Position numbers and translations under genes: made by a program. Below the pieces are notes generated by a model. The model saw nothing but the letters and a program-made list of their open reading frames with translations. It was not told the origin of the DNA and made no database searches. Shown here piece by piece: positions 1-60,895 of a stretch of DNA of 64,000 bases (position 1 is its first letter; every line of letters begins with the position of its first letter). This DNA is from Rhizophagus irregularis (lineage: Eukaryota > Glomeromycota > Glomeromycetes > Glomerales > Glomeraceae): contig NC_089436.1 in the NCBI RefSeq assembly GCF_026210795.1, positions 2,356,001-2,420,000 on the forward strand. The letters run 5' to 3'.

Positions 1-2544
1 GATTTTCCTCCACCCATTGTTGTTCCTCCAAAAAATAGCCGTACCTAAAACAAGAATATGTTAATAAATTATTTAATCAAAAAATGCTAAATAAAATATT
101 ACAAATTGTGAATTTAATTAGTTTAAATGTATTTACCTGTTGATGATTTTTCTTTTCTATACTTGATGTTGAAAAATGCCGCAATACCATTCCTTTTTGT
201 TTTAGATATCGCATAAATTGAGGTACATGTTGAGCAAGCACATGCATATAAGGTGTAACGTCTGTGCGCAAATACATTCCTTCTTGTTGATTAATACTAT
301 TCAGATCACCAATAGTAGGACGACAAAAATCACGAATCCATTGTTTTGCATCAACTTCAAATTGATTGATTTTCTCATCTGTTATAGACTTTTGACGCAT
401 AATTTTATAAAGATTATAAAATTTACGCCAAAGGTATTCAATATCTTGCCCTCTTGCAGCTTTTCGTCCTTCAAAAAGATGTTTAATCTGAAATTCTTTC
501 AATATTTTTTCCTTATCGTGCACCCTATGCGTTATGTCCATTCCCATTTTCCATTTTTCGTAGTAGGAGAATAAAACTCAAAATGAATATGTAATCTTTT
601 CATTTCTGCAATTATCAATGGTTGTGTGTTATTTGCAAAATCTTTTTGTTTAACAAGTTCATAAAATAGACATTGAAAAAGCACATCAGAAATTCGCAAC
701 ATAAGATGCAATTCATCTGTGATCCAATTATTTTGATCAATTTCTTGAAAAAGCATTGTATTTTTACATCCTATAACAAATATTAATTTTTTTAATTTTT
801 AATTTAATATTTTAAATAAAAAATACAATAAAATCAAATATATACCACGTGTATTTTTTGAGTTTAACCATACTTTATCCATATCATATCTCTCATCTTT
901 ATGATAATTACAATATAAACAGAAGTAATTGGATGTTGCCGCATTAATTCCTAAAACTAATGCTACGAATTTCCAATCACCTGAAAAAAAAAGTTCAATC
1001 GGCCAAATTGTATTATTTGAATCTTTATATCCATTTATCTTTAATTGTTCAAGTTCTTGTGAAAATTTGGCCGATACAATTGATAAAGAATTATAAGATT
1101 CCTTTCCTATATATAAACAAATACTATGTACAACAATATTATAAATAAATCATGTATAATAATTAAAATTGACAATATATACATAATACCTGTATTGATG
1201 AGCAGGATTCAGAACGCCCTCTTTTTCATTAAGAATACACATAGTAAGCATCACATGCTTTTGCTTTCGCCCTACATTTCTCCCATCTCCACTCAATTTT
1301 ATATTAATCTTATCTCCAACTTTTAAAATAGGAGGTGTTGAAGTTGTTAAAATAGGAACTATAATATCTAATAGAGATATAATAGATCGGTATGCACCAT
1401 TGCCCACATCATCATCATTAAGTTCTATTCCACTAATATCTTGTTGATTTTCATTATCATTATCATCATCAAGATTAACACTTTGCAAATTAAATGGTTT
1501 AATTGGAATAAGGGAATTCATTATTTTTGTGATTTCATTTCGGCGTTTTTCAATTACATGTTCTCTTATTAAATTTGGAACAGCTTTAGCTAATCTGCGA
1601 TAACTATTACGCGAAATTAATATTTCATCACAAGCACGGATAATTGAATCTATGTGTTGTGTAAAATCAGTTACATTGTCAGGATGGAAATGTAACTCTA
1701 CAATTTCACCATTAATTTTAAGAACTATAGCTTCAATAGTTGCAATAATTTCTTCAGATGGTGAAGTAAATTTATTTTTTTTGAGAATTGACATAGTTTG
1801 TGTTGCAATTTCCTTTCCAACCATTGAAATGCGTTTATTTTTTTGTGATTGTGATGTAAGTTCAGTAAAATATCATTTGCGATTAGCAGGTGTAATAGAT
1901 TGTTGTGGCTGACAAGCAATAATTTTGCGAATTTGATGTAAAAAACCTATATCTAAACCAAAAAGGGTTGTACCAGAAACTCGTGAATTGGGTTTATTAC
2001 ATATTTCCTATAAATAAAGATTATTAAATACAATAAATACAATTACTTAATCATCTAATTAAATATTACTTACCTTTAAAAATAAGGAACCTGCAGCTCC
2101 AGCTGATGACAAGCTATAACTTGACTTTATTTGTCCATTTTCATCTGTCCATTCAACAATATATTTGACTGCAATTTTACGTGAAAATTGATATTGTGTT
2201 TTGCATAAAACTACTAGTCCATTTAGTGTTGTTTCTACTTGATAATTATTTGGAATTTTATAATTTATTCCTTTATCTTTTCTAGTATAAATTACTTTTG
2301 TAGAATATTGCCCAAGAGATATAATTTTATATGTTTGAGGATAATTTTTGCCACCAAATATTCTAACAGCATGAATATATGGGTTGGAAGGATAATTATG
2401 AAAAAATGAATGATGTGTATTTTCATCATTAACTAGAATAAGTTCTTCATTTTGAGTTTCTTGAAAGTGGTCACAAGTAATAGGAGTTTGAAACTGTAAT
2501 AAATTATTTGGAACTTCACGATTACTTAATGGGTTTCAAAACAT
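1..2544 (-). pseudogene. Broken member of an expanded DDE-transposase-like family, runs off the left edge
   Basis: Six exon blocks can be followed on the minus strand: 2544-2074, 2007-1190, 1123-846, 770 into about 535, 547-137 and 44-1, separated by clean GT-AG introns. The product would contain SGDGRNVGRK, then FFSGDWKF followed by a CLYC pair, then DELHLMLRIS, and finally SSIEKKNHQQ. The order Asp, Asp, zinc-like Cys pair, Glu-Lys-Lys-Asn-His recalls RAG1/Transib-type DDE transposases; that comparison is inference. The copy is dead as written: an in-frame TGA is the third codon after the ATG, a second TGA follows NRK near 1880, and a frameshift with TAA lies near 540. Both TGAs sit where a Trp would fit. 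I recognise the family only as an expanded one in such fungi and cannot give it a confirmed function. Confidence 0.6.
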
Positions 2545-3430
2545 AATAGACTGTATTAAAGTTTATTTTGTTAAAATATTGTATTAAAAATTTTAAGACA
2601 CGAATATATTTTAAAATATTATAAAACATTATAAAAATTTAAACTTTTTACTTCGTCAATTTAATAAATCTTTTATTTCCTTTTTAAAATATATTCACCT
2701 TCCTTTTTAGAATATGTATAAAAGGTAAACAACTTTGACCTTAAGAATAGGATCGGAGTATGATTAACTTTGGAAAGAGACTTATCAAAATAAGAGGAGA
2801 CGTATTAATAATGGGGGCGTGTTGCATTTATTTTGACAGTGTTTATCACGAGGTAATCACATGTATGTAATACAATTTCCTAAATATCACGTCAGATGAT
2901 ATTATAAAAAAAGTTATATCCGCCCATATGCTATGACCCATAAAAGTTTTAAGTTTTGGCCAAACTTCTGTGACTTTATTTGGCTGAAGCTTTAAAGTCT
3001 AATATCACCAAATTTACTATAAGATCAGCAAATGATCGATAAGGTGATATAAGGATGTCCGCCCTGTTGGTGGCCGTCACCTATAAACCATACTAATATT
3101 ATATAACTTCAAATTTTTATAAATTGTAAATTGAATAGTAAAAAAAAAAACTAAACTGATAAAATAATAGAACAACATGTACTGAACATTTCTATCAGGT
3201 TATTTTATAGAATTTAATAAGAATTTTAATTAATATTATAGGTTAAAGTTAAATAATTTTAATAAGTAGTAATAATAAATTATATAATTTTTATGGATTT
3301 TACAAAAATTCTATGAAAATCCAATAAATTTCTGATTTGCTATTTTTAAGTTATGGAAAAATTGAAAAAAGAAAATTTGCATATACAGTATGTTGTAGGC
3401 TTTTCACATATAATAATTTCTATATTAATT
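2545..3430. other. Gene-free AT-rich stretch
   Basis: No supported gene is seen. The part around 2930-3080 is less AT-rich and has the look of an old repeat, but no terminal repeats were found. Confidence 0.4.
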
Positions 3431-51704: not shown

Positions 51705-53369
51705 CTATTTTGGAATTTCAGGTATGTGAAATGCTCTAACACGGATCTGATAATTATTCCTTTCTGTTCTCAGAAGATTACAGATAGACACGTAAATAGC
51801 ACTAGCACTGTGTTGAGTATAGGTGAAAGGTTGAAACCAATCAAGATTAAAGAGAAGGCCTAGGTGTGTTGTTGCAGTTTCTGGTGTAAAGAAGGTATCA
51901 CCATTAAATGGGAAAGTTTTCCATACCTTACCATCATAAATATCTGAATAGGTATTAACCCCTCCTCTTTGAATTCCTGATAATTCCAGCATATCTTCAA
52001 ACCCAGGTCGTTGGTATAACATACTTAATTGCTGACGAATACTTGGTTTAGGATAAATCATACGAGGTACAGCAATTATTTCACCCTTTCTTTTTTTAAG
52101 AATAGAAAGTGGATTGTTGCATTTATTATGACGACTAGGTACTGGATTATCTGGGAATTCTTCATGTAGGCAATTTGCAATAGCAGCTTTTCCTTCTTCT
52201 TTGTATTCAACAATATTTCTAACATTATACAATTTATGACAATTGTTGCATACAGCTAACTGCATTTTTGGTTGAAAGATATTTAACATTTTTTTTGTAA
52301 GATATAAGGATACTGGAAAATTTTTAAATTGTGATTTATCTAAACGAGTAAGTACAATATGTAAGAATTTTATTAATACTTCAAGTGCTATATCTGGAAG
52401 TCTAAATCTTTGTTGAAATTTGAATACCCATAGAATAATTTCAGTTTCTATAGAATCATTTAAACTTTCCATCACAAATACTTCATCATTACCAATTTCA
52501 GGAGATGAAAAAAATTCTTCTATATCCTCCTCCTCCTCCTCATCATCTCCATTATCATCATCATCTTCTTCTTCATTATAATCGCCTTCATCTTCACTAC
52601 CATTATTTTCAGCACCATTATTCTCATCGCCATCATCCTCATTACCGTCATCCTCATCACCGTCATCCTCATTATCATCATTTTCTTCTTCTTCATTGTA
52701 ATATATATATTCATCGTTATCCTTATTTTCATCAGGTGCTGGAACATGAAAATAAGAAGGATTTGGCAATAATGGTGATGATGAAAATAATGTATGTATG
52801 TTTTCATTATTATTTGGTTGGAATGAATCAGTATCTTCATTGAAAGGATTAAAGCCACTATTATGTTGGGAAGAATCAAGATTAGAACTTGATGCCCTTT
52901 TTCGCTTTTTTGTAAGGTTTACATCTTGAATAATGATTAATCTTTTTTGTTTTCTCGCTGTAATAGTATCTTTCTGATTTTTCCTAGTATCCTCTGAGTT
53001 CCACAAACTTTCATCATTTGTATGATTTTCTTGAGTGCAAAAATCAACCTCTGCGCTGTCACAACGAATACAATGGCATAGATACAAATACCTTTTTCTG
53101 GGTTTTATTAAATCGGCCATTTTTGGTTTTTTTGATTTTATTGAATTGGCCGTTTTAGATTTTATTAAATCGGATACAGAGGTAGAGATTTCAATTTTAG
53201 TTTTTTTGGATTTTATTAAATCAGACACGGAGGCAGAAGTTTCAATTTTACTTTTCCTGGGTTTTACTAAATCAGAAACAGAGGTAGAGGTTTCAATTTT
53301 ACTTTTTTTGTGTTTTACTAAATCAGACACGGAGTTAAAGGTTTCAATTTTACTTTTTTTATTATTCAT
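51705..53369 (-). pseudogene. Truncated CACTA/Plavaka-type (Tnp2-like) transposase
   Basis: A 554-codon frame. It opens with four tandem 17-residue units (KSKIETSTSVSDLVKPR-like), then a CHCIRCDS motif, a long acidic low-complexity tract, and a region with VCNNCHKLYN. It ends with the Plavaka-type block (YDGKVWKTF, GLLFNLDWFQPFTYTQHSA, IYVSICNLLRTERN, IPEIPK). In complete relatives that block precedes the rest of the catalytic core, which is absent here: the frame stops soon after, so this is a 5' fragment or a deletion derivative. The acidic tract is encoded by (TCA/TCC)n-like repeats on the plus strand. Confidence 0.75.
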
Positions 53370-53705
53370 TTTGTATTTTATGAAATAGCTAAGAAAGTTA
53401 AGGTTACAATTACTTAAATAAAGTACGCTTATTAAAAAATTTTCAAAAAAATTATCAATTCAATTTTTCCAAAATCAGGTTCTTCAATCACTTTTTTAGG
53501 ATCAGGAACAAGTTCGCGTTTAATTCTTCAATTTCGTGTTCAACCTTTCTTTTAGGATCAGATACACGTTCAATTCTTCCTTAAGATTAAGATTAGTTTC
53601 ACGTTTAATTCCTATTTCAAAATCAGTTTCACGTTTTTGGTAAGATAAAATAAACGTTTAATTATTCTTTTAGATCAGATTCGCATGCAGTTCTTCAAAA
53701 TCAAG

Positions 53706-53972: not shown

Positions 53973-55019
53973 ATGTATCGAACAATTAAAGTAAGTATTT
54001 TTTTATTATCTGTCATTGAATTTTCCCAAATATTTACGTTTATTTATTATTTATAGAAAGAAGTCTTTATCTGGGTAGATTCTGAATTTAAGGATATATA
54101 TGAGATCGATAGTGATCGTACGTGGCTTGAGCAAAAAGAAAATATAATTACAAAATTACTTCCACCGCTTTATAAATTAGTCAACAAAAAGTATAATGTT
54201 TCAAATAGTGACATCTTAAAGATGTTACATAGACGTTGGCGTTCACGCCATCATGTAAGCAATATAAAGAAGCAAGAAGACGACAAAGTGAAAATGGATA
54301 GGAGGAGATTAAAGAAGAATTCAAGAACTATGGATGTTAGTAACCATTTTATTAATATGAAGTGGGAATTTAGTTGATTTTATTTAATTTTATAATTATT
54401 TATTATTATAGAAAAAAAAAAGAAGAGCTCAAGCGGCAAACTATTTAATAGAAAATAATGATAAATACATTCGTAGATACCCAGAGAAGGAGCTTGTACG
54501 AATTCTTAAGGAATCTGGTTATCATTCAGAGGAGTGGGAGGAAACTGATTCTGATGAAGAAAATGATATAATTGGTAAAGAATCTGCTGTTAAAGAAAAG
54601 ACAATGTCAATTCATATATATAAAACATGGTGGCGTTCTTCTGCAGTATGTACTATATATTTATGATTATTTTGTTTATTTTATTTATTAATAGTAATTA
54701 TTTATTAAAGCTTCAGCGTTTATTACATGATCAGATTGATCCGACCGTTGAAAAACTGAGGAAAAAACCTCGAATTCTAAAAATTAAAAGAGTTCAAAGA
54801 TGTAAAACAACAAGTATGTCTCCAGTGGATACACCAAATTGGTGTCTGACCGACGAGGCTCTTAAAAGATTTAATCGTTCAATAAATGAAATTCCAACAT
54901 ATGATTATAATACTGATCAAGATGAAGAAAGTGACGAATATCATAACGATGAATATGAAAATAAAAAAAGAAAAAATAAAAAAAACAAAAAAAGCAAAAA
55001 AAGGGGTAAAAAAACATAA
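53973..55019 (+). CDS. Plavaka-associated basic protein of unknown function
   Basis: Exons 53973-53990, 54057-54335, 54412-54645 and 54717-55019 sum to 834 nt (277 aa), phases agreeing. The first coding exon is 18 nt. Content: EVFIWVDSEFKDIYEID, MLHRRWRSRHH, KRRAQAANYLIENNDKYI, YHSEEWEETDSDEEND, LRKKPRILKIKRVQR, DTPNWCLTDEALKRF, and a very basic Lys tail. A Ser-rich open frame from 53874 (29 residues) ends with TAA just before and is probably an upstream frame. The divergent placement, about 600 bp from the Plavaka-type transposase, suggests both belong to one transposon. No enzyme motif seen. Confidence 0.6.
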
Positions 55020-55079
55020 AAATAATTAAATATTATGATTAAATACTTTTATTAGGTTATTATTATCAATTGGCATTTA

Positions 55080-56347
55080 TGTTGTGCCTCAGATCGATTC
55101 TTGCCTCAGATCGCAACTCACGCACCTCAGATTGAAATCGTCATGTGAGGTGCGTGATGTGGATCATTGATAATCTGAGGTGCCTCGGTTTTAATCTGAG
55201 GCAAATAAAAAATTTTTTTTTAAAAAAAATATCGATCGTTTTCTACTATTTTTTACTATTTTATTAATCTGAAATAGTGTTAGTTTAACTCATTAGTAAC
55301 TACACTAAAAATTACTTTAATTATTATAAAGTTTTTAATAAGAACGGTTCTTTACGGCTAATTGGCTCTTTGAGGTAAGTTCGGAAGCTTTTATTTTATT
55401 TTTTTTTTGTTTTTTTCTTTTTCGGAACGGTACTAACCATTCCTACCTTTTCTTTTTTTTGTTAAACATTTTAAGTAGGTTTTTTTTGTTTTTTTCTTTT
55501 TAGGAGCCGTATTTAACCCATTTCTTTTTTTTTTTTAATAGGAACGGTTAAAATGTTTTAAGGTAGAATTCAATTTTTATTTTATTTTTTCTTTTTTGAA
55601 CGGTACTAACCGTTTTTTTCTTTTTTTTTAGCATTTCGGCCTGGGCTCTCTCCCGGTAAATAGGTATGCTATAATGTTTACTATAGTGTTAGTTTCTTTC
55701 TCCTAGAACGGTACTGACCGTTCTTTTTCTTTTTTTTTTTTTAGCAGTTCAGCCTGGACTTTCTCCCGGTAAATATTTGGTGCTATGGTGTCTATGGTGT
55801 TAGTTTCCTTCTCCTAGAACGGTACTGACCGTTCTTTTTTCTTTTTTTTTAGCATTTCGGTCTGGTCTCTCTCCCGGTAAATATTTGGTGCTATGGTGTC
55901 TATGGTGTTAGTTTCTTTCTCCTAGAACGGTACTGACCGTTCTTTTTCTTTTTTTTTTTAGCATTTCGGTCTGGACTTTCTCCCGGTAAATATTTGGTGC
56001 TATGGTATCTGCGGTGTTGTTTTCTTTCTCATATGTTTAAATAATCGGCGTATTTGTAAAGTAGAACGGTACTGACCGTTCTTTTGTCTTTTTTTTAGCA
56101 TTTCGATTTGGACTCTCTCCCGGTAAATAGGTGGTGTTATGGTATCTATAATGTTGGTGTTTTCTTCTAGATATTAGCCATTCTCTTTTCTTTTTTTAAT
56201 AGGAATAGATTAATGGTTTTTTGAGAATAGGTAAATAAGATTTTGAGTAAGAAAACATGGATGTTAGAGAAATAAAAATTTATAATAAGAGGAACGAAAA
56301 AAAATTTAATGTAAAATCTGATATTGAATAATATAAAATTGTGTATA
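55080..56347. repeat. Left long inverted repeat of the Ginger-type element
   Basis: About 1268 bp, mirrored at 58597-59864. The outer 140 bp hold inverted GCCTCAGAT strings. The inner part has four to six units of roughly 110 bp, each with the palindrome AGAACGGT-ACTG-ACCGTTCT (exact at 55705, 55816, 55924 and 56063; variants near 55419 and 55596), a pyrimidine run, TAGCATTTCGG and CTCTCCCGGTAAATA. Confidence 0.88.
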
Positions 56348-56490
56348 ATCTATTAACAAATAAAATCAATGATTTAAGCATACATGAAATTACTTAAATT
56401 CAAATTCTTTATTATTTTTTCATATAAGACATCAGTAATAATGCATTTTTTTGACTAATTAATATATTTTTACATATAACAAATGCCGCA

Positions 56491-58359
56491 TCATTTATTT
56501 TGACATGAACGTCCACTATGGCATCTACTGCTACAGTCTCCACCTGCCTTCTTACAGCGACATTTATTACTATTGCATTCACCTTTACAATTACATATAC
56601 CCCCTGATACTAAACCCGCACTCTGAAGACGTGCAGCCTCTCTAATTGATATTTTGTTTAAGGGAATGACTTCTAATTCAGGAAAAGTTTCTGTTCCAAG
56701 TGGTTCTAATTCACTAGCAGAATAATACACTCCAATTATTCCAAATTTTGATCCCAAACTATATTTATTATTTTCAGTTTTTTCCATAATTTTACATGGC
56801 AAAGTGGGTCGATCAACACTAAATCTATCAATTTTAGGAACAGCAACCCTTACCAGATCACCAATCTGATATTCTTTAATTCTTTTTCTTCCCTTGCTCA
56901 TTTGATTGGCCATCTTATTTGTATAATCTTGAAGGTCTTGACGAGCCATATTTCTTAATACTTCGTGCTGTGTATTATTTGTAATATCTAAAAGGACTGG
57001 ATCAATAAGTACTATATGTCTATTATTTTCATTATCTTGATCTTGGACCACTGCTCTTTCAATATCTAATTGTTGAACTGGAATATTTGATTCTAATTGT
57101 ATTAGTATGATAAATAATAAAATTTGGCAATTAGATTAAAAAAAACATTTTATTAAATTTAATAAATATTATTGAAATTAATAATTTTTTTAGTATTAAA
57201 AACCTTACCTTTCAAATCATCTATTATATCACTATCCAAATCTTCAATACTATCATATATTTGTATAGTATCAGGTATATCCTCTTCATTATAGATATTT
57301 TTTGCAAATAATTCATCAATTAAAGTACAATTTCCACGTGGTTTATCACCATATACGAGTTCATATGGTGTTTTTTTATGGGACCGACACCATGAATTGT
57401 TCATAGCTGAAATAACAAATTTAAGACCAAAAGACCAATCAGTTCGGCCAGTATTCTCTCGCCACTTACCAAGCTTTTGTTGTAAAATTCCATTAGCACG
57501 TTCAACTAGGCCCTGAGACTGCGGATGTCGTAGACGACCATTTATAATCATTACTGTAGGCCACATTTCAATTAATTCCTTTATTACTCCCGCACAAAAC
57601 TCTTTCCCATTGTCAGACTGTAAAATAGTTGGAGGAGAGCCTAAAAAATGGAAAAGTTCAAAAAGATATGCTGCTACTTCAATAGCTCTTTTTGAAGTAA
57701 GAGCTCTGGCCCAAGAGAATCTTGTAAAGTGATCTCTTACATGGCAAATATATTTATATTCGCCATCTGCGTCAAATGATAAATCAATAAGATCCATCTA
57801 AAAAAAATAAAAAATAAATTAAATATAATAATAATAAAAAAAAGAATATAAAATAAATTAAATATTTACTTGCACACGAGATAGAAAATTCCTTGCAATG
57901 ATAGGCTTTGCTGCTAAAGGGTGAAATGATGGTTTTCGTACTGCACATATTGTACAATTATTAACAAATTGTTCTACAATATCTTGTTTAATCCAACCCC
58001 ACCTTTCTATAATAGACTTCCATGTCTGTCTTTGCCCACCATGCTGTGTAATTTCTGCATGAGTTCGACATAAAACTTCGTACATATTTTCTACAGCCAA
58101 CACTGGGTTGTTGTTTGCTGCAACAATTACCCTATAGTCACCAGGTGTTATTTCCTCAAGCTTAAACTTTTTCTTAATCCAACTACGTGTATTTTTATTA
58201 GAAATAGTATTATTTTTAGGTGTCTAACAATACTTCTTTAATTTTATTTAAAAAATTAAGATTTATCAAAGCTTTTTCTTGCTTTGACGTAGGGAGGTTG
58301 CCAATGTAACGTTCAATAATTCCATTAAATGTATCTCTGCTGATAAACGTATATTCCAT
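56491..58359 (-). CDS. Ginger-type transposase: HHCC, rve integrase core, CXC-like tail
   Basis: Exons 58359-58229, 58182-57870, 57797-57209 and 57092-56491 sum to 1635 nt (544 aa). The first intron (46 nt) is short; read straight through, that spot would be a frameshift. An HHCC zinc module precedes the core (RTHAEITQHGGQ ... NNCTICAVRKPSF). The core has Asp150 (MDLIDLS), Asp210 (LQSDNGKEF) and Glu247 (GLVERANG), a DDE set with 36 residues between the last two. HPLAAKPIIA and FTRFSWARALTSKRA are shared with animal KRBA2-like and Ginger proteins. The C-terminus has a GDLVRVAVPKIDR chromo/SH3-like strand region and a CXC-type cluster (GICNCKGECNSNKCRCKKAG, then RCHSGRSC). The last intron contains TACTAAT. 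Full length and open. Confidence 0.85.
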
Positions 58360-58596
58360 GACAAAACATATAGCTACAAACATGTGTTTTCAAGCTGTAA
58401 CGATATAAAGCATGTGTCTTCAGACTGTAACGAGATAAAATATGTGTTTTCAATCTGTTAACGCGATAAAACGTGTTTTCCATAAAAAAAAACTGTAATA
58501 AAAAAATGTTGTGTCTTTGTAAAGATTATCAATGATTTGCATCACACATATCACCTGACAATAATCTCAATTTTTAAGTTGATTTTATTTATTACA

Positions 58597-59864
58597 CAAT
58601 TTTTATATTATTCAATATCAGATTTTACATTAAATTTTTTTTCGTTCCTCTTATTATAAATTTTTATTTCTCTAACATCCATGTTTTCTTACTCAAAATC
58701 TTATTTACCTATTCTCAAAAAACCATTAATCTATTCCTATTAAAAAAAGAAAAGAGAATGGATAATATCTAAGAAAACACCAACATTATAGATACCATAA
58801 CACCACCTATTTACCGAGAGAGTCCAAATCGAAATGCTAAAAAAAAAGACAAAAGAACGGTCAGTACCGTTCTACTTTACAAATACGCCGATTATTTAAA
58901 CATATGAGAAAGAAAATAACACCGCAGATACCATAGCACCAAATATTTACCGGGAGAAAGTCCAGACCGAAATGCTAAAAAAAAAAGAAAAAAGAACGGT
59001 CAGTACCGTTCTAGGAGAAAGAAACTAACACCATAGACACCATAGCACCAAATATTTACCGGGAGAGAGACCAGACCGAAATGCTAAAAAAAAGAAAAAA
59101 AAAGAACGGTCAGTACCGTTCTAGGAGAAGGAAACTAACACCATAGACACCATAGCACCAAATATTTACCGGGAGAAAGTCCAGGCTGAACTGCTAAAAA
59201 AAAAAAAAGAAAAAAGAACGGTCAGTACCGTTCTAGGAGAAAGAAACTAACACTATAGTAAACATTATAGCATACCTATTTACCGGGAGAGAGCCCAGGC
59301 CGAAATGCTAAAAAAAAAAGAAAAAAAAACGGTTAGTACCGTTCAAAAAAGAAAAAATAAAATAAAAATTGAATTCTACCTTAAAACATTTTAACAGTTC
59401 CTATTAAAAAAAGAAAAAGAAATGGGTTAAATACGGCTCCTAAAAAGAAAAAAACAAAAAAAACCTACTTAAAATGTTTAACAAAAAAAAGAAAAGGTAG
59501 GAATGGTTAGTACCGTTCCGAAAAAGAAAAAAACAAAAAAAAAAATAAAATAAAAGCTTCCGAACTTACCTCAAAGAGCCAATTAGCCGTAAAGAACCGT
59601 TCTTATTAAAAACTTTATAATAATTAAAGTAATTTTTAGTGTAGTTACTAATGAGTTAAACTAACACTATTTCAGATTAATAAAATAGTAAAAAATAGTA
59701 GAAAACGATCGATATTTTTTTTAAAAAAAAATTTTTTATTTGCCTCAGATTAAAACCGAGGCACCTCAGATTATCAATGATCCACATCACGCACCTCACA
59801 TGACGATTTCAATCTGAGGTGCGTGAGTTGCGATCTGAGGCAAGAATCGATCTGAGGCACAACA
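58597..59864. repeat. Right long inverted repeat of the Ginger-type element
   Basis: The mirror of 55080-56347, with the same order of palindrome units. Small differences in homopolymer length, and a few bases, are the only changes I could see. Confidence 0.88.
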
Positions 59865-59868
59865 TTTA

Positions 59869-60895
59869 TACGAATTGATTAAAATAAAGTTGTATGTAAG
59901 ATTAATTTGAACATTCAATCCAATTAATTTTAAAATCCCTATAAAAAATATTTTTGCTAAAATATACTTAAAATAAACTTAAAATTTTATTTTATACTTA
60001 AAATGTATTTAAAATTTTATTTTATACTTAAAATATACTGAAATAGGCAAAAATTAAATATTATTTAAGTATAATTTAAGTATATAATAATATACTTAAA
60101 ATATTCTTATTTTAAATATCCTTAAAATATACTGAAATAGGCAAAATTTAAATGTAAATTAAATATATTTTAAGTATATATTAAATACAATTTAATTCAA
60201 ATTTTACGAAAATTCAATTTTCAGTATATTTTAAGTATAAAATAAGAAAATTAAGTATATTTTAAAGAAAATTAAATATATTTTAAATATATTTTAAGTA
60301 AAATTTTTTTTTATAGGGAAATAAAATATGTATATTTTTAATATTTTCGTCAGTTATTCGTGATATCAGAAAAAATAAAAAAAAATTGAAAATAAAGGGT
60401 TTTATATGAATAAACGATTATCTTTAATATTAAAATACTTTTTTTAGTAATAATTTTAATATACCTCTTTGAATTATATAATACAAATACAATAAATAAA
60501 TATTTTGCATATCGGTACCTGATATGTGTAAGATTGATTCAGTGTTACATATCAGTGACTAATCGTTTAGATATCGGGAATCCGATTTTTAGGCATATTT
60601 GATATGTTACATATTGGGTACCCGATATGTAATAAATGTCCGATATATATCTGATTAGTCACTGATATATAGGTACCCGATATGTACCCGATAGCATCAA
60701 TTTTGACCAGTGAAAATAACTATAAAATGACATAATTTCATTTTAAATGATTTTTTTTTTGAGTTTCATTGTCATTTTTTTTTATTTTTATTTTAACTTT
60801 TTTCTTAATTTTATTGTAGTGATAATGTGCGAAAAATCATATGCTAAAGAGCTGCCTTTTTCACAAATTTAGTAATCACATATGAGTGAAAAGGT
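59869..60895. other. AT-rich low-complexity stretch with a palindromic insertion
   Basis: 59930-60310 is built from variants of ACTTAAAATATACTGAAATAG and its inverse. At 60509-60697 a foldback carries GGTACC[T/C]GATATG at both ends and ATCAGTGACTAATC with its inverse GATTAGTCACTGAT inside, probably a MITE. No gene. Confidence 0.55.

Follow-up and report, generated by a model that had tools for sequence, protein, structure and literature searches.

A Ginger2-like DNA transposon with long inverted arms and a frameshifted transposase gene in the mycorrhizal fungus Rhizophagus irregularis

We analysed a 64,000-nucleotide (nt) stretch of the Rhizophagus irregularis genome (the window; C8:2356001-2420000 in the genome of 146.7 Mb and 32 contigs that was searched) and focused on the DNA transposon at its positions 55080-59864. 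This element is very probably one copy of a Ginger2-like cut-and-paste family whose 559-amino-acid (aa) integrase-like DDE enzyme is encoded by a three-exon gene, with the gene of the window copy itself being frameshifted. The ends, the duplications, the target preference, the empty sites, the family of copies and the conserved catalytic residues can all be read directly in the sequence. A preliminary description of the window had recognized a Ginger-type transposon in a fungus, and we reached the same assignment based on the H2C2 finger and D,D,E residues, the TGT...ACA ends, the 4-bp duplications and the lack of GPY/F. As a kind the element is ordinary; its unusual features are a CXC-like tail and long arms in which 110-bp palindrome units are repeated in tandem. 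It shows that a mycorrhizal fungus harbors a Ginger2-like group of several lineages, for which there are clean empty sites and one sister copy whose gene is open.

The window copy starts with TGTTGTGCCTC at 55080 and finishes with GAGGCACAACA at 59864, the end being the reverse complement of the start, and its first five bases, TGTTG, fit TGTNR...ACA ends as inverted repeats. Its inverted arms are 1266 and 1272 bp long and 98% alike as inverted copies, and a TTTA abuts each end (Table 1); the TTTA duplications, TGT...ACA ends and 1.27-kb arms of the preliminary description are therefore all borne out. No reverse-transcriptase-like frame was seen by eye within the element among open reading frames of >=60 aa, and the terminal repeats are inverted and not direct, as those of long terminal repeat (LTR) elements would be. 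By its sequence, the window copy is a structurally complete, fairly recently inserted Ginger2-like element.

Empty-site searches covered the window copy and one sister copy, L004. The joined flanks of the window copy, with one TTTA, match at least 16 transposon-free places across the junction at 91–99% identity (40 of 353 candidates scored), and in all five empty places that were fetched the site reads exactly ...GGCA-TTTA-TACG... with a single TTTA. Since 16 places have the repeat without the transposon, the insertion was into one copy of the repeat after the repeat had spread. The flanks of L004 (C2:1487879 and 1492884) place that insertion seemingly in a LINE-like (long interspersed nuclear element) reading frame, recognized by eye; ten related places span its junction, but at 64–66% identity they were too diverged to count as an empty site.

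Seven further long copies with both ends were found in the genome (C3:3560686, C27, C12, C2, C3:4678987, C15, and C17). Further copies and single-TTTA empty places, the absence of which the preliminary description held would refute it, are thus both present, and the empty sites and close sister copies support its proposal of fairly recent movement. A few internally deleted copies of ~1.7 kb also keep both ends (C27:2762416 and C5:3210294). The 16-bp tip (<=1 mismatch) occurs at 127 genome sites vs. one for a reversed-pattern control. Much of the family is short: a 499-bp derivative is present at at least 40 places (all 40 scored among 111 candidates; two of them are only about two thirds covered and six only 74–75% identical), and a second non-autonomous derivative, of exactly 181 bp and similar at its termini, is present at at least six places among the matches listed (for example, C1:3253372-3253552). 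The long copy at C3:4678987 is split by a 7-kb Gypsy element (L063, C3:4680600-4687800), which lies inside its transposase exon and, having 1.23-kb LTRs that are 99.9% alike, is a very recent nested insertion.

To describe the target we compiled 33 insertions, comprising the eight long copies with both ends, 21 of the 40 places with the ~499-bp derivative, two 181-bp derivatives and, for each of two sister lineages, a single element, so that 31 represent the family of the window copy and two its sisters; the partial copy L009 and the internally deleted derivatives L010-L014 were left out. Perfect 4-bp duplications flank 32 of the 33. Among these 32 duplications, 22 are TATA, 30 are preceded by a purine and followed by a pyrimidine (R....Y) and 21 fit RTATAY, a pattern whose density in the window is 0.37%; none is CCGG or CCGT.

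The gene model that fits has 559 codons in three exons, separated by introns of 72 and 116 nt. In the open C12 copy, the 559-aa protein matches the Pfam families rve (PF00665; E 1.6e-9) and Integrase_H2C2 (E 7.3e-7), both above the cut-offs, and the best match of the transposase in the Protein Data Bank (PDB) is the prototype foamy virus (PFV) integrase (E 2.3e-10, residues 104–314). Residues H100, H106, C135, C138, D165, D225, and E262 are invariant in four lineages of the genome; the window copy holds the H2C2 and D,D,E residues, but downstream of its frameshift. No OTU or Ulp1 domain was matched in the C12 protein by Pfam up to E 1, and GPY/F is absent from all four Ginger lineages, whereas the same test was positive in all four resident Gypsy integrases fetched. 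No obvious match to YPYY lies upstream of the zinc finger in alignment A1, as judged without a reference alignment of that motif.

The C-terminal part of the protein was examined both by alignment, from which L008 was left out at exon 3 because of a stop there, and by structure modeling. Eight cysteines and one histidine of the tail are invariant in all four lineages. The tail weakly resembles a CXC (Tesmin/TSO1-like) domain, with matches to Pfam TCR (PF03638) that are below the cut-off in two of the four lineages (E 0.0076 and 0.17) and no match in the window family's own tail; a comparison with the PDB gave a single match, to a ribosomal protein (E 0.36). In the exon 3 model (mean predicted local distance difference test score 66.6), in which the cysteine tail is not resolved, residues 70–143 are similar to a small SH3/Tudor-type barrel. 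A fold search placed the C-terminal region of PFV integrase at rank 12 (Z 5.8 over 62 residues), tied with many Tudor/PWWP domains, and with modest confidence we regard the model as compatible with an integrase-type barrel, which it does not prove.

These features support the identification of a Ginger-type DNA transposon and, on those that could be examined, of a Ginger2 element. In the available part of their account, Bao, Kapitonov and Jurka (2010; PMC2836005) describe Ginger2 by an RTATAY target, 4-bp duplications, TGTNR ends and the lack of GPY/F, and Ginger1 by a CCGG/CCGT target and GPY/F, with OTU or Ulp1 in all but one of the transposases. The window family has in common with Ginger2/Tdd all four of the former, together with the H2C2 and DDE core and short non-autonomous relatives, and differs in its CXC-like tail, of which the available part of the Ginger2/Tdd account makes no mention, and in having several lineages in one fungus, vs. 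the one fungal vestige named there. With Ginger1 it shares an integrase-like DDE transposase, the H2C2 finger and 4-bp duplications, but none of the Ginger1 targets, GPY/F or OTU and Ulp1 domains.

A profile search with rve listed 150 matches in the genome, mostly outside the family of the window copy, of which four, all resident Ty3/Gypsy elements, were read (L063-L066). Like the window family, these have Integrase_H2C2 and rve (L063) and an integrase core (27–30% identical), and unlike it they have direct LTRs (L063), GPY/F, and reverse transcriptase beside the integrase (L065 and L066; by eye). This core identity is what would favor a Gypsy retrotransposon remnant, or a Ginger1 element, in place of Ginger2; set against the inverted terminal repeats, the lack of any CCGG/CCGT target among the 32 duplications, the absence of GPY/F and the failure of Pfam to find OTU or Ulp1 in the C12 protein, either identity seems extremely unlikely.

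The preliminary description had further proposed that the window copy encodes an intact 544-aa transposase, with a first intron of 46 nt, and may be active. We reproduced the 544-aa frame, as removal of 58183-58228, which has GT...AG borders, leaves 544 aa and a stop, but the gene is not intact: the extra base in this stretch is found in the window copy alone among 11 aligned copies and shifts the frame at codon 46. In nine of the other ten copies (L001, L002, L003, L004, L005, L007, and L008, and the sister copies L015 and L016) the frame stays open here without splicing, in L005 as far as the Gypsy insertion, which sits where the stretch ends; the tenth, the sister copy L017, has its own, different 1-nt loss nearby. 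The family copies read VLLDPKNNTISNKNTR through the stretch (L008 reads VLLNPK...), and in a separate comparison L031 and L033 also read through it. The removed stretch includes R58, which is invariant in four lineages. The window copy is also set apart by P252L, at another position invariant in the four lineages.

Six GT-AG pairs of 40–100 nt restore the frame of the window copy, and in a simulation some such pair would have rescued 409 of 429 random insertions; the open spliced frame is therefore uninformative about an intron. This calls for caution with exon 1, where a GT-AG pair could account for almost any of the simulated frameshifts. We conclude that the frameshift accounts for the proposed first intron and that the transposase of the window copy is predicted to be broken. 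As the gene structure of the family, the 46-nt intron is already contradicted by the comparison of copies, and for the window copy an intact, possibly active gene is highly unlikely. The four introns given previously do not agree with either model, the 544-aa one having three (46, 72, and 116 nt) and the family gene two, nor does possible activity apply to the window copy on its own, since a copy with a frameshifted gene would move only with enzyme from elsewhere.

Several points weigh against the interpretation of the window copy as a frameshifted member of a Ginger2-like family. It was derived from sequence comparison, and the Ginger2 label from the features listed above. Its 1.27-kb arms with tandem 110-bp units are longer than any Ginger2/Tdd arms tabulated in the available part of PMC2836005 (45–297 bp; Table 2 of that paper), and one long copy, L007, is flanked by ATAA and TTAA and has no matching duplication. 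The extra base is seen in a single assembly and may be an assembly error, while the 46-nt stretch may still serve as a cryptic intron in the window copy. Lastly, the low dN/dS of the C12 copy vs. L040 of the nearest sister lineage (0.10 overall and 0.27 over the 18 codons of residues 45–62), which speaks for coding sequence at the 46-nt stretch, is a rough measure because the dS of 2.4 is near saturation, and the 18-codon value is very rough.

If the element is a Ginger2-like transposon, its enzyme would be expected to bind both ends, most likely at the TCAGAT-type motifs that recur close to the tips, with the palindromes of the arms as second candidates, and to cut at TGT/ACA. The ends would then be joined to target positions 4 bp apart at RTATAY-like sites, leaving the 4-bp duplications. 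The window copy entered another repeat after the spread of that repeat, and at some point its gene gained the 1-nt insertion, so that no full-length enzyme is expected from it. Like the 499-bp and 181-bp derivatives, it would be movable only by the enzyme of another copy.

Among the eight long copies in our comparison of frames, from which the partial copy L009 was left out, only C12 is fully open. The copy at C3:3560686 has one stop, at codon 253, that on C2 carries D165Y and has lost 1 nt at codon 523, C27 has many indels, C15 has a 759-nt insertion, C17 has four stops and a 193-nt loss, and in the split copy no frame defect was seen besides the Gypsy insertion. In L008 (C17:3618212-3622694), many changes (E-to-K, P-to-L, CAA-to-TAA, and CGA-to-TGA) are C-to-T or G-to-A, as expected of deamination, although they were not counted base by base. 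The same-side arms of the four closest copies (the window copy, L001, L003, and L005/6) differ by 0.1–0.8% and the opposite arms within one copy by 0.6–1.2%, and the arm-to-arm difference thus looks older than the insertions. We rejected dating by arm-to-arm divergence because the opposite arms of one copy differ more than the same-side arms of different copies. Greater divergence, of up to 18.5%, is seen in one or both arms of L002, L004, L007, and L008.

Three sister lineages are present in the same genome, with identities taken from alignment A1. The nearest, on C14, C16, and C17, is 67% identical, and its C16 element is 2718 bp long with a TATA duplication and arms of ~120 bp; a second, on C7, is 45% identical (6365 bp, duplication TCAG); and a third, on C1, C16, C20, C28, and C31, is 42% identical for its C1 member. 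Relics with stops are found on C6, C13, and C28. The preliminary description had raised a transfer between animals and fungi because of KRBA2-like motifs, and the finger, core, barrel and cysteine-tail layout of the transposase presumably resembles that of animal KRBA2-like proteins. A recent horizontal transfer from such an animal source has, in our view, very little probability: the diverged lineages and relics suggest long residence, with several such lineages in a single genome there is no need to invoke a recent transfer of the window copy's family, and there appears to be purifying selection between the two nearest lineages. Relatives were not confirmed in IMG/VR, GTDB prokaryote genomes or phages, none of which is an animal collection, and this search is silent on an animal source. 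Fungal Ginger elements have, in addition, been reported before, in the available parts of the sources, as a vestige in Malassezia (PMC2836005) and as one element in Umbelopsidales (PMC7928374). In the available part of the R. irregularis repeat curation (PMC11075540), about two-thirds of the transposable elements of this fungus are said to have been unclassified before that 2024 work, and "Ginger" occurs in the main text only within a methods list of search profiles.

Table 1. Features of the window copy and its insertion site (window positions).
Feature	Position	Strand	Basis or remark
Target site duplication, left (TTTA)	55076..55079	.	Single TTTA at 5/5 fetched empty sites
Target site duplication, right (TTTA)	59865..59868	.	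Same basis as left TTTA
Left inverted arm, gene's 3' side	55080..56345	+	Query 1-1266, 98% match to right arm
Right inverted arm, gene's 5' side	58593..59864	-	Query 3514-4785 matches left arm
Transposase exon 1 (N-terminal part, H2C2 zinc finger), 490 nt	57870..58359	-	Frameshifted at codon 46 in window copy
Proposed 46-nt intron: coding sequence (45 nt in other family copies) plus 1-nt insertion	58183..58228	-	Copy alignment
Intron 1, 72 nt, GT...AG	57798..57869	-	GT and AG kept in 8/8 alignment rows
Exon 2, integrase core; D165, D225, E262 (559-aa numbering)	57209..57797	-	P252L in window copy; rve match in C12 protein
Intron 2, 116 nt, GT...AG	57093..57208	-	Gene model, copy alignment
Exon 3 (SH3-like barrel, then CXC-like cysteine tail)	56491..57092	-	Alignment, structure model
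Tandem array, ~108-bp units, left arm	55598..56030	+	Tandem Repeats Finder, 4.0 copies
Left-arm palindromes	55425, 55598, 55706, 55817, 55925, 56064		Motif search
Tandem array, ~110-bp units, right arm	58906..59344	-	Tandem Repeats Finder
Right-arm palindromes	58855, 58994, 59104, 59216, 59327, 59501		Motif search
Multi-copy repeat hit by the transposon	54830..59936 (left part at least 54830-55079, right to about 59936)	.	Joined flanks match 16 places

The arms are built of tandem units, and each contains six 18-bp hyphenated palindromes of the type GAACGGTACTGACCGTTC, mostly ~110 bp apart (12 in the window with <=2 mismatches vs. 0.03 expected). In five units of the left arm a T-tract that ends in AG comes after the palindrome, with CCCGGTAAAT another ~24 nt on, a pattern that is largely kept in diverged relatives. 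Read inward, the units look like serial mini-exons, which in the right arm (an inverted copy) would run in the sense of the gene; because they arose recently from one another by duplication, their similarity counts for little as evidence. We consider it rather unlikely that each arm is an inward-facing promoter with a 5' leader of several exons that arose as a 110-bp cassette was duplicated in tandem, each of five cassettes holding the GAACGG/CCGTTC palindrome, a T-rich stretch up to an AG, ~24 nt and then CCCGGTAAAT, which together would provide a mini-exon. The palindrome is also a possible binding site of a host regulator or of the transposase. Long arms are not general in this group, because those of the sister element on C16 are so short. 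The unusual arms make end recognition and excision by integrase-type transposons a testable question.

Outside the element, the reading frames to its left at 51705-53459 (-) and 54057-55019 (+) were without a confident Pfam match. Elsewhere in the genome the exact 18-bp palindrome occurs at 79 sites, and among the matches listed many, not all, are in copies of the window family. A 19-bp sister palindrome, GAACGGTTACTAACCGTTC, occurs at 209 genome sites vs. none for a reversed control. In the minisatellite array of L062 (C1:5154000-5158500), units of ~130 bp at 881-3203 contain GAACGGTTACTAACCGTTC and, after it, a T-tract, AG and a TTCGG-like stretch, and a minisatellite at 8139-8463 of L036 has the same module. 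Given this related module in minisatellite arrays, the arms may have been built from a host satellite or may have been the source of one.

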